From positions 17,933-81,932 of the forward strand of contig JAUVAV010000010.1 in NCBI GenBank assembly GCA_030591525.1: 64,000 nucleotides of DNA, read 5' to 3'. Both the position numbers and the translations under genes were made by a program. Below are positions 7,584-58,340 of this stretch, piece after piece (the first letter of the stretch is position 1; every line of letters begins with the position of its first letter). A model generated the notes under the pieces. It made no database searches and had not been told where the DNA came from. It worked only from the letters and a program-made list of their open reading frames with translations. The DNA is from a candidate division FCPU426 bacterium (lineage in GTDB: Bacteria > Oederibacteriota > JAAXVQ01 > JAUVAV01).

Positions 7584-7644
7584 GTTATTGTTTTTCCGGT
7601 AGAAAGGATAGCGGGAAAGAAATAATGCTTTTCTACCTCTGGGA

Positions 7645-8211
7645 TCAAAATTCTTCGCCCTTCGGGGCGGGGGATTTTAATATTTTTCCGATCTTGTTTT
7701 TGTCAGGACCGGATAAATTTGCGACGGCTTTTTCAAGATCTTCCCGGCGGCTTTTTAATCCTGCCAGCATTCGGTTAAAGGCTTCTTCCACATCATGAAA
7801 TTCATCGTTTTTACGAATTTTCATAATGACGTTTAGATCCCCCTTTTCGATTTGATGCATCATGCGTTTTAAATTATAAAGGGGACCGGCAATACGGTGG
7901 GAGTAAAAAAGGCTGAAAATCACAATCAGGATACTGCCGAGTAATGCTGAGAATAGCATGGGCAACCAAAGAATATCCAGAACCCGCGTAAAGACCATGG
8001 TGGGACTTAAGGTGTTCGCGAAATAAACTAAATCCTGGGATGAAGGACTGAATATTTCTTTCAACTTCAGGAAACCGACCGTAATAAAATGCGAAAAGAA
8101 AATGCTTGCGATCACGACTGTTCCAAAACGCCAAATAACCCTGTGCTGGAAACTTTTTTCAATCAGAAATTGGTGCCGCCGCTGATATTTCTTTTTGGTT
8201 TGCTGTTGCAT
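7645..8211 (-). CDS. Membrane protein with HAMP-like domain
   Basis: Two TM segments; YSHRIAGPLYNLKRMMHQIEKGDLNVIMKIRKNDEFHDVEEAFNRML. Confidence 0.75.
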   Translation of the reverse strand: MQQQTKKKYQRRHQFLIEKSFQHRVIWRFGTVVIASIFFSHFITVGFLKLKEIFSPSSQDLVYFANTLSPTMVFTRVLDILWLPMLFSALLGSILIVIFSLFYSHRIAGPLYNLKRMMHQIEKGDLNVIMKIRKNDEFHDVEEAFNRMLAGLKSRREDLEKAVANLSGPDKNKIGKILKSPAPKGEEF

Positions 8212-23343: not shown

Positions 23344-24279
23344 ATGTTTACCCGGCAAATGAGGTTAGTTTTACTGTTTGCTTTAATAATTTCTTTAGGT
23401 GTTGTCAACCAGCTCGGCGCCACTTTTTCCAAGAGTGACGCCGGAACCGCTACGGCAAATTTCCTGAAATTAGGAGTGGGCGCCAGAGCGGCAGCCATGG
23501 GGGATGCGTTTACCAGTATTTGCGATGACGCGACCGCGGTATACTGGAATCCCGCCGGATTGAGTAAAATCCGGAAACATTCTATTTCTTTCATGCACGC
23601 TTTATGGTTTGAAGATATCTTCTATGATTGGGTTTCCTATGCCCTGCCGCTTAAAAGGAATGGCACGGCCGGTATTGGAATCCAATATCTGAATTACGGC
23701 GGAATTCAAGAGACTGATGAATTTGGAGTCGAGCGAGGTCTGTTCTGGCCGTACGATTTAGCCGTGACAGTTTCCTATGCCAGAAGTATCTCGAATATTT
23801 CCCTGGGAGGAAGCCTGAAATACATTGCCTCGAAGATTAAAAACACGGCATTTTCCATCGCGCTGGACGCGGGTGTTAAGTATGCGCTTTTCGATGAGAA
23901 ATTATCCCTCGGCCTGGTAGTCCGAAACCTGGGGCCGGGGATGCAATATGGCGGTGAAGGCGATCCGCTGGCCATGGATATCAAAATTGGTCTGGCGTAC
24001 CGTATATTTAATGATTGGCTGATTGCCTTGGAGGCTGACGCGCCGCTGGCCAATGAGGCCGGTTTTGGAATCGGGAGTGAATATAATTACCAACTAAACA
24101 AAGAAATCATTATATCCGGCAGAGCCGGTTATAACACCAGTGCCCGGTATACCGGCGGATTAAACGGCTTAACAGCCGGCACTGGAGTGAATTATCTGGG
24201 ATGCAATTTTGACTATGCCTTGGCATCGTTTGGAAAACTCGGAATGACGCATCGGATATCGATTAGTCTGAAGTTTTAG
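23344..24279 (+). CDS. PorV/PorQ family (UPF0164-like) outer-membrane protein
   Basis: ANFLKLGVGARAAAMGDAFTSICDDATAVYWNPAGLSKI...; ends MTHRISISLKF. Confidence 0.88.
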   Translation: MFTRQMRLVLLFALIISLGVVNQLGATFSKSDAGTATANFLKLGVGARAAAMGDAFTSICDDATAVYWNPAGLSKIRKHSISFMHALWFEDIFYDWVSYALPLKRNGTAGIGIQYLNYGGIQETDEFGVERGLFWPYDLAVTVSYARSISNISLGGSLKYIASKIKNTAFSIALDAGVKYALFDEKLSLGLVVRNLGPGMQYGGEGDPLAMDIKIGLAYRIFNDWLIALEADAPLANEAGFGIGSEYNYQLNKEIIISGRAGYNTSARYTGGLNGLTAGTGVNYLGCNFDYALASFGKLGMTHRISISLKF

Positions 24280-24290
24280 AGATATATTAA

Positions 24291-24318
24291 ATTACCCCGC
24301 ACTGAAGTGCGGGGAATT
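24291..24318. terminator. Hairpin CCCCGCACTGAAGTGCGGGG downstream of PorV-like gene
   Basis: Perfect stem; same core as the hairpin at 52252-52282. Confidence 0.6.
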
Positions 24319-24606
24319 TGATCCGAGTTTAGCCGGGGCCATGAATGACAACTGTGCAGTTAAAGCAAACTTGGCTGATGGCGCAGGATGTAAAGCAGGA
24401 CGGCGGGATATACTTGCGGCTCCATAACAAATTAAGCGGCATAAATTGTTTTACAAAAGCAGCGCGTTCGTTTATATTGCTATTTAAATTGGTTGTTCCC
24501 TTCAGATTGCTGCAGGAGTAATTGATTAAAAATACGCATCTCTTGTCTTGTTGTGAGCAGCGTGAAGCTGCGTCGGTTAGCCGACGCTAAAATAAGGAGG
24601 ATGTTA

Positions 24607-42550: not shown

Positions 42551-42782
42551 CTAGGAGCCTGTCGGACATAGGCACAAAAGCGGATTTTAAGCACTCTTCC
42601 CCCTTTGAAAAAGGGGGATAAAGGGGGATAAAGGGGGATTTTGAACAGATAGTTGTGCGTTTTTTCAGCAAATCCCCCTGCACCCCCTTCTCCCTGGACT
42701 AAACCATCCCCTGGACCAAATCATCCAGGACAGGCAGGACAGGCCGAAGGGGGAAAAAGACTTAAGTCCGACAGGCTCCTAG
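42551..42782. repeat. MITE-like element, family 1
   Basis: CTAGGAGCCTGTCGGACATAG ... CTTAAGTCCGACAGGCTCCTAG; interior has direct repeats of AAAGGGGGAT. Confidence 0.85.
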
Positions 42783-42893
42783 GCAGATAAAATCATAAAA
42801 GATTAATTGATTCCGGCCACCTGTGGTATACTATTTATCTGGGATTTTGTTGTGGCCGGAATCAATAGTTTATAATTATTAGGGAGAATAGAT

Positions 42894-44459
42894 ATGGATT
42901 TAAAAAAGTTTAATTTAATGTTTTCTAAAATAGAGTTGCCCAGGTTAGAGTTGCCAAAATTTAAGCTTCCCAAGATAAAGATGCCAGAGCTTAAAATCGG
43001 AGATATAAAAGCAAGAATTCCAATTATTCAAGGTGGAATGGGAGTAGGAATCTCTCTTTCCAAACTTTCTTCTGCGGTTGCCAGAGAGGGAGGTATAGGA
43101 GTAATAGCTGCCAATGCAATAGGAATGATTGAGCCGGATTATTTCAAGAATGGGGTTGAAGCAAATATGAGGGCTTTAAGAAATGAAATAAGAAAAGCCA
43201 GGAGTCTGAGTGATGGCATAATTGGTGTTAATATTATGATTGCTTTGAATGATTTTCAAAATATGCTTCAGGTTGCAATTGAAGAGAAGGTTGACATTGT
43301 ATTTCTGGGAGCGGGACTCCCTTTAAGGGGGATTCCGATAAAAGAGATTAAAAGAGCTAATGTAAAGGTTGTGCCAATTGTAAGTTCGGCCCGCGCAGTA
43401 AGATTGATATTCAAATATTGGCAAAAAAACTTTGCTACCATCCCTGATGGTGTTGTGGTTGAAGGACCAAAAGCCGGAGGCCATTTAGGTTTTAAGGAAG
43501 AAGATATAGAGAATCCGGATTTCAGACTTGAGAATTTAATTCCGGAAGTTGTTAAGGAGGTCAAAGAATTTGAAAAACAGTTTGCCAGGGAAATACCGGT
43601 TATTGCTGCAGGCGGTATTTTTGATGGGAAAGATATTTATGAGTTTTTAAAACTTGGTGCTAGTGGTGTACAGCCGGGGTCTAGATTTGTTGCTACCGAA
43701 GAGTGTGATGCTGATATAAACTTTAAAATGAGCTTTGTGGACGCAAAAAAAGAAGATATTGTTATTATACACAGCCCCGTGGGGATGCCGGGAAGAGCTA
43801 TTTTTAACAGTTTTTTAAAAGGGGTTAATTCCGGCGAGAAAAAAGAGTTCAAGTGTCCCTGGAGATGTCTTGAGAGTTGTAAGGCAGACAAGGTAAATTA
43901 CTGTATATCTATTGCTCTTAATAATGCTAGAAAGGGTATTTTAAAGCAGGGATTTGCATTTGCGGGCACAAATGTTTATAGAATTGATAAAATAGTTCCT
44001 GTGAAGGAACTGATAAATGAAATTACAGAGGATTATCTTGCGGTGGTTGAAAATGGTATTAGCCGGATTAAGCACGAGTATGAAAAAGTCAAGAAAAAGC
44101 TCATGGGATTGAAAGAGGAGTATGAAAAAACAATTGAAAGAGGATCTAATCTTTTTAAAGAGGAATATAATAAAGCTTTTACCAAGGGGTCAGCTAAACT
44201 AAAAGGTGAACTAGAGAAAAGTTTTAATATGTTAGCCGCGAATTCCCCAGCTTTCCCTGATAAAGACATCAGGACAGGCAAGGCGGGGATGAAGCGGGAT
44301 AGTAATAATGATTTCCTGCAGCTCATATCCAATTCCCCGCTCTTTAGAGCGGGGAAATTGAATAAAATTAACTGGCTGAAATCAGAGTATATTGAAAATT
44401 TTAAACTAATTGATAAAATCAAAGCACAATTTATGGCAAAAACCTTTGGTTTGATTTGA
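42894..44459 (+). CDS. NAD(P)H-dependent flavin oxidoreductase / nitronate monooxygenase-like
   Basis: IPIIQGGMGVGISLSKLSSAVAREGGIGVIAA; GPKAGGHLGF; PVIAAGGIFDGKDIYEFLKLGASGVQPGSRFVATEECDA. Confidence 0.88.
   Translation: MDLKKFNLMFSKIELPRLELPKFKLPKIKMPELKIGDIKARIPIIQGGMGVGISLSKLSSAVAREGGIGVIAANAIGMIEPDYFKNGVEANMRALRNEIRKARSLSDGIIGVNIMIALNDFQNMLQVAIEEKVDIVFLGAGLPLRGIPIKEIKRANVKVVPIVSSARAVRLIFKYWQKNFATIPDGVVVEGPKAGGHLGFKEEDIENPDFRLENLIPEVVKEVKEFEKQFAREIPVIAAGGIFDGKDIYEFLKLGASGVQPGSRFVATEECDADINFKMSFVDAKKEDIVIIHSPVGMPGRAIFNSFLKGVNSGEKKEFKCPWRCLESCKADKVNYCISIALNNARKGILKQGFAFAGTNVYRIDKIVPVKELINEITEDYLAVVENGISRIKHEYEKVKKKLMGLKEEYEKTIERGSNLFKEEYNKAFTKGSAKLKGELEKSFNMLAANSPAFPDKDIRTGKAGMKRDSNNDFLQLISNSPLFRAGKLNKINWLKSEYIENFKLIDKIKAQFMAKTFGLI
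44223..44361. repeat. Palindromic repeat element inside the C-terminal coding region of the flavin oxidoreductase
   Basis: TTTAATATGTTAGCCGCGAATTCCCC ... GATGAAGCGGGATAGTAATAATG ... AATTCCCCGCTCTTTAGAGCGGGGAAATT; ends match 57915-58070. Confidence 0.8.
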
Positions 44460-44716
44460 GAATGACTGCGCGGCAATTACTTTATTCCGCACCACCCCCA
44501 ACCTGCCAAAATCGACTTTCCCTTTCCGGTTTTTGGTTGTACTTTGCCTGTTTAAGCTAAATTTCTGTGAGAAGTTAGGGGACATGGTGGACTCCCTCCA
44601 GATTGCCGGAGGGTGTTCTAATTCACTTAACAATTGACCAATTCTTCCGGGTTTTGTTACACTTTTTCGCAAGGGCGCGGCTGCTAAGGCCGGGCAGATC
44701 GCGGAGATGTTAATTT

Positions 44717-57914: not shown

Positions 57915-58070
57915 TTTAATATGTTAACCGCGAATTCCCCGGATTGACTTCGTGACATGAGATGAAGATTATTATTGATATGCATGTTCAAGCCGGTGAT
58001 GAAGCGGGATAGTAATAATGGTTTTCTACAGATCATATCCAATTCCCCGCTCTTCAGAACGGGGAATTGG
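57915..58070. repeat. Palindromic repeat element; noncoding homologue of 44223-44361
   Basis: TTTAATATGTTAACCGCGAATTCCCC ... GATGAAGCGGGATAGTAATAATGG ... CCAATTCCCCGCTCTTCAGAACGGGGAATTGG. Confidence 0.8.
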
Positions 58071-58340
58071 ATTTTTATCCGCCTTTGCAGATGACCCCGG
58101 TTGGTGCTGCATAAGTTAAACTGAAATACATAATTTGAACTGCCAAAATATATGACATAATAATGCTATAATAGTAAATGTCAATATTGACATAATATAT
58201 TATTTAATATATAATAAATTGTAAGGTTACTTATTATTAACTATATATTTATAAAAAAGTAATATAATATTATAGTTGGTTTTTATTGCGGTATGACAAA
58301 GTGTGAGAATACCCTTTAAAAGGGCTTTCCGCAAAAGATA

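Follow-up and report, generated by a model that had tools for sequence, protein, structure and literature searches.

The window analysed is a stretch of 64,000 nucleotides, and the genome to which it belongs is a 91-contig assembly. An oxidoreductase gene on its forward strand carries an extra segment within the coding sequence. The open reading frame has no stop throughout and specifies 521 amino acids. Its product matched the Pfam NMO family (PF03060) with an E-value of 7e-56 and scored under the FabK equivalog cut-off. Most homologues of the protein stop soon after the position equivalent to residue 385, and the closest homologue group has a C-terminal extension without the insert. The original prediction, made from the sequence alone, had placed an in-frame palindromic repeat at 44223-44361 in this extension. 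The reading frame was indeed open through the segment and encoded the peptide quoted there, and the location in the extension held. The features at the locus are as follows.

42894..44459, forward strand: host open reading frame (P0001), a nitronate monooxygenase / FabK-like flavin oxidoreductase with a helical C-terminal extension.
44223..44227, forward strand: target and left cleavage sequence TTTAA, which is host DNA according to the alignment with empty orthologues.
44228..44362, forward strand: inserted palindromic element of 135 bp (45 codons), TATGTTA...TTGAA, exactly missing in the orthologues L100, L101 and L102.

L100, L101 and L102 are the closest orthologues and come from three Candidatus Aminicenantes assemblies. 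Their protein identities to the host gene product are 91, 89 and 92%, respectively, and their length is 476 aa against 521 aa in the window. The DNA alignment contained one 135-bp insertion, between AGTTTTAA and TAAAATT. The three are orthologues of the kind that the original prediction asked for: they lack the insert, by exactly its 45 codons, and the frame is clean across the junction. The empty target reads TTTTAATA in L100, TTTCAATA in L101 and TTTAGTA in L102. The predicted insert is therefore real, but its boundaries were off by 5 and 1 bases, as the empty sites give 44228-44362. The presence of the same peptide in orthologues of distant taxa was checked and rejected. No match to the element was obtained in the genomes that hold the three orthologues, and the insert in the oxidoreductase gene was seen in one genome only. 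The window matches L100-L102 from 42864 to 44463 at 89–92% DNA identity, with the flanking DNA unmatched, and a search for the gene in the same-genus genome G001 gave no match. Therefore, the gene may have been gained horizontally, the element being inserted afterwards. Translation through the insert would be marked by peptides such as DSNNDFLQLISNSPLFR.

The segment 44223-44361 was compared with its own genome and gave 85 BLAST matches with a best E-value of 5e-77, so that the repeat is not a chance resemblance. These correspond to about 40 distinct places after left and right halves were merged by hand, which bears out the predicted dispersed palindromic repeat. The copies are mostly intergenic, and about 2–3 of the approximately 40 lie within genes in this genome. 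One non-coding copy lies in the window itself.

57915..58074, forward strand: non-coding copy that belongs to a larger loop type (153-bp class); its altered right end reads GGGGAATTGGATTT.

This copy had been predicted at 57915-58070; it is real and runs to 58074, but it is of a different loop type from the insert and its right end is altered. Two further stretches of the window, 7610-7682 and 24274-24322, match the element's right half in degenerate form. The element was present in 6/6 genomes of the bacterial family, and one genome of the order gave a single weaker match at 77% identity. The other 38 genomes of the phylum that were searched contained none. A separate search with the window copy returned one weak 35-base match in another family. 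No left end was found in the viral contigs searched, and none in phage records. The window gave no Rfam match above thresholds; membership of the L010 copy in an Rfam family was rejected, as its matches were sub-threshold chance ones.

Short forms with internal deletions, roughly 45–95 bp long, were observed in G002 and G003 (L167, L168, L169, L171 and L174). They retain the left end and mostly also a recognisable right end. Some element copies, L026 among them, contain a second small repeat family of the AACCATCCAGGACAGGCAGGACAGGC type inside their hairpin loop. This family also occurs at 42704-42750 of the window, and approximately 30 short matches to it were obtained in G001. An additional small palindrome, TTGCCCGGCGAATGCCGGG, lies within the right hairpin of an element copy in G002 (L208, 1481-1650).

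The insertion rule was read from five pairs of filled and empty sites, namely the window gene against L100-L102 and the following four.

L010 against L129 of G001: junction between CCGGTTAA and TCCTG, insert of 111 bp.
L004 against L148 of G001: junction between TTTTTTA(A/G) and GGAATTG.
L026 against L157 of G001: junction between ATTTAA and GGAGCAAG.
L044 of G001 against L182 of G000: junction between GGATTTAA and ACGTCC.

All five pairs fit one description: the element starts with TATGTTA directly 3′ of (N)TTAA, ends with TTGAA and leaves no detectable duplication. TTAA is present at the filled site of every pair. Three empty relatives depart from it by one base (the partner of L004 with TTTAG, L101 with TTTCAA and L102 with TTTAG), as is expected of diverged orthologues. 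Almost all copies have TTAATA on the left, and on the right they have TTGAA, or TTTAA in a diverged subgroup. The base 3′ of TTGAA varies among copies, which argues against a fixed longer duplication. A target duplication of AAT(A), hinted at by the window junction alone, was rejected on account of this variable base and its absence at the L004 and L026 junctions. The element has no terminal inverted repeats. The two junctions share an AA, which follows from the TTAA target and the TTGAA end.

The internal organisation of the window copy is listed below.

44241..44244, forward strand: candidate left guide AATT, which would pair with TTAA by the IS608 rule at 3/3 positions.
44245..44288, forward strand: left hairpin CCCCAGCTT / AAGGCGGGG with a 26-base variable loop, from the sequence.
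44330..44333, forward strand: candidate right guide CAAT, which would pair with the right-end TGAA by the IS608 rule at 3/3 positions.
44335..44354, forward strand: right hairpin CCCCGCTC-TTTA-GAGCGGGG, from the sequence.
44358..44362, forward strand: right end TTGAA, a candidate right cleavage site conserved in most intact copies; the empty sites fix the junction.

The left hairpin differs from the CCCCGGCTT/AAGCCGGGG consensus at 2 positions. IS200/IS605 elements have no terminal inverted repeats, generate no target site duplications, carry subterminal hairpins and insert 3′ of a tetra- or pentanucleotide (PMC7290912). The target of IS605 is TTTAA, and mini-IS605 forms keep 100–150 bp from each end (PMC2993954). 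Each hairpin of IS608 has a four-base guide immediately on its 5′ side; the first base of this guide pairs with position –3 of the cleavage site and the second with –4 (PMC5934647). The published TTAC/AAAG and TCAA/GAAT sequences suggest a further pair between the fourth guide base and –1. In the element, the left and right guides each overlap the maximal stem by one base, in the same register. The pairing was computed for the right end and assigned by inspection for the left, within essentially one sequence family. Because the copies are not independent, the 3/3 pairing at both ends is only suggestive of an IS608-like chemistry.

The boundaries, the empty sites and the target are given by the alignments, and from them we infer HUH-Y1 as the enzyme class of the mobiliser. 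The element is very probably a non-autonomous, hairpin-ended element of the IS200/IS605 type, inserted in frame after TTAA with no detectable duplication. In the oxidoreductase gene it would have entered immediately 3′ of TTAA without target duplication, like IS200/IS605 elements.

A possible but less favoured explanation is a REP/BIME-like palindrome spread by the RAYT enzymes of the genome itself, not by an IS200/IS605 TnpA. The genome encodes four Y1 transposases, all RAYT-like with open frames of 275–355 aa, and Y1 genes are present in 9/9 genomes searched. In addition, REPs can sit inside genes, also in Rickettsia conorii, and like the element they are hairpin repeats, mostly intergenic, in genomes that hold Y1 transposases (PMC3733652). 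However, the GTAG and CGTC families of REP/BIME differ from the element, which is a two-hairpin unit of 111–180 bp with fixed asymmetric ends, beyond the 20–40 bp of a REP. GTAG occurs in it only internally on the reverse strand and not at a hairpin foot. Nor do the RAYT loci carry its ends: these were not found within about 1.5 kb of the three loci scanned, and the fourth (L115) was also negative. The two explanations overlap, because RAYTs are HUH-Y1 relatives of IS200 TnpA and the chemistry is the same in kind. The RAYT-like Y1 genes therefore remain candidates for the mobiliser of the IS200/IS605-type element. Neither the surroundings of Y1 genes nor a search for long-spaced ends revealed an autonomous TnpA copy with the ends of the element, an absence that weighs little in draft genomes. 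Right-only and left-only copies and their surroundings were short deletion derivatives or decayed copies, with no second end at transposon distance. A 145-aa IS200-type TnpA in G003 was rejected as the parent, as its ends do not resemble the element.

After NTT-AAN, the element encodes (F/V)NMLAANSPAF...GMKRDSNNDF..ISNSPLFRAGK. Its length of 135 bp together with this open frame would add 45 residues to the oxidoreductase and leave the gene unbroken. Compact copies are mostly open in the NTT-AAN frame, and in many of them one antisense frame is open as well; the larger loop types are mostly closed. The common core lengths of 111, 135, 153 and 171, plus one of 180, are each divisible by three, and the remaining single copies are mostly off these by 1–2 bases. 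The larger loop types share this property though they are mostly closed in every sense frame, and chance is possible. TTAA can be read in three sense phases: the first leads into the open frame, the second is a TAA stop that is kept intact and the third stops immediately (TTA ATA TGT TAR). Copies associated with long open reading frames occur in the open-frame phase and in the TAA-stop phase. Among 38 copies pooled from loci of six genomes, the target TAA closes an upstream open reading frame of at least 80 codons in 10, against 34 of 790 TTAA positions in the window. This background is from the window only and includes genic TTAA; therefore, the comparison measures survival and not target choice. 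The copies observed directly after a long open reading frame, with the target TAA as its stop, are L005, L006, L012, L014, L025, L033, L043, L046, L047 and L048. The frames closed in this way include homologues of ftsE, gyrB and mreB, recognised by inspecting the translations. Survivorship is the best reading of the pattern across the family: copies persist outside genes, after a TAA stop or in the single coding phase that gives the open frame. A rather doubtful extension is that the element has been selected to be harmless in genes. It would then be a selfish DNA compatible with proteins and mobilised by an HUH-Y1 enzyme, with a TTAA target that preserves stops and with compact forms of 111 and 135 bp, whose lengths are divisible by three and which mostly have one open frame on each strand. 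If true, unrelated proteins could in this way come to share one peptide in their linkers and termini.

As judged from the reading frames, at least one other gene certainly uses the same frame, and two more probably do. The certain case is P0002 (L010), in which 37 extra residues lie exactly between the Memo (40-312) and AMMECR1 (399-549) domains. They are absent from the 84–87% identical G001 protein, which provides the empty site. A PMT_2-type membrane protein of G001 (L044) has 37 extra residues close to its N-terminus, which are absent in G000. Their translation is probable; the start codon is a predicted one, and a 5′ leader is possible. In L208 of G002, the peptide forms the C-terminus of an FtsL/DivIC-like protein with Pfam scores just under the cut-offs, and this case has no empty partner. 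Finally, an antisense copy may provide the C-terminal extension of a metallo-hydrolase-like protein in a 364-aa frame (L009), for which an empty site was sought and not obtained.

For the understanding of the effect on the oxidoreductase, a structure model was built on a shallow alignment of 10 sequences. Insert residues 451-473 were below pLDDT 50 and placed between helices of the extension. The insert is thus probably a disordered loop within the helical C-terminal extension, and for this reason the simplest reading is that it is tolerated there rather than useful.

It is improbable that the gene is dead or silenced and its frame open by accident. Its distribution is patchy, with no match in the same-genus genome, and a random stretch of 37–45 codons of this composition would be open with a probability of about 0.09–0.14. 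However, 521 codons without a stop and 89–92% protein identity to intact orthologues speak against it, as does the recurrence of the in-frame insert in at least one more gene for which an empty-site partner exists. Even less probable is the recruitment of the insert as a functional part of the enzyme, which the original prediction had called domestication. Although the frame is kept open and the peptide recurs in unrelated proteins, the insert was seen in a single genome, comes out as disordered in the structure model and is 93% identical to the nearest non-coding copy. Most compact non-coding copies are also open in the same frame, and therefore the openness needs no protein-level selection. 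No sign of such selection on the insert was seen in what could be tested, and a Pfam search with the peptide gave no family. An assembly chimera that placed a repeat copy in the gene is very unlikely. Repeats are a classic cause of misassembly, but the TTAA target and the element ends are exact at the junction, the gene is intact on both sides of the insert and collinear there with L100-L102, and the same anatomy is seen independently at four other sites.

The best-known examples of in-frame palindromic insertions come from Rickettsia. The Rickettsia palindromic elements (RPEs) are repeats of about 150 bp that sit in frame in unrelated genes with a conserved peptide (PMC10969869). Compared by behaviour alone, the element is alike in being a short dispersed palindrome with the same frame and peptide in unrelated open reading frames, and the analogy originally drawn is apt to this extent. 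Descent from RPEs is not supported: the element occurs in another lineage, only in its own family with one weaker match in the order, and its ends point to an IS200/IS605-type mechanism. Nearly half of the RPEs lie in genes in R. conorii, in contrast to about 2–3 of 40 copies here, and the element has a readable TTAA, no-duplication insertion signature. We know of no clear account of how RPEs move in Rickettsia. PATEs and mini-IS605 forms, which are non-autonomous IS200/IS605 elements, resemble the element in consisting of ends only, with subterminal hairpins, a fixed short target, no terminal inverted repeats and no duplication (PMC2993954, PMC7290912). On the other hand, translated in-gene copies are not described for them in the available parts of these papers, and the TnpA parent of the element was not found. 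The QMITEs of Coxiella burnetii are also fused in frame to genes on occasion, and one such fusion extends the C-terminus of EnhC (PMC5896051), comparable to the FtsL/DivIC-like case, but they are another element in another lineage.

By behaviour, the element is a new family of RPE-like protein-coding palindromes; by mechanism, it is most likely a non-autonomous element of the IS200/IS605 type. It adds an independent case of in-frame palindromes outside Rickettsia, with clean filled and empty pairs and a recognisable insertion signature. It also offers a testable model, in which single-strand HUH-type transposition into TTAA would sometimes add 37–45 residues to a protein.
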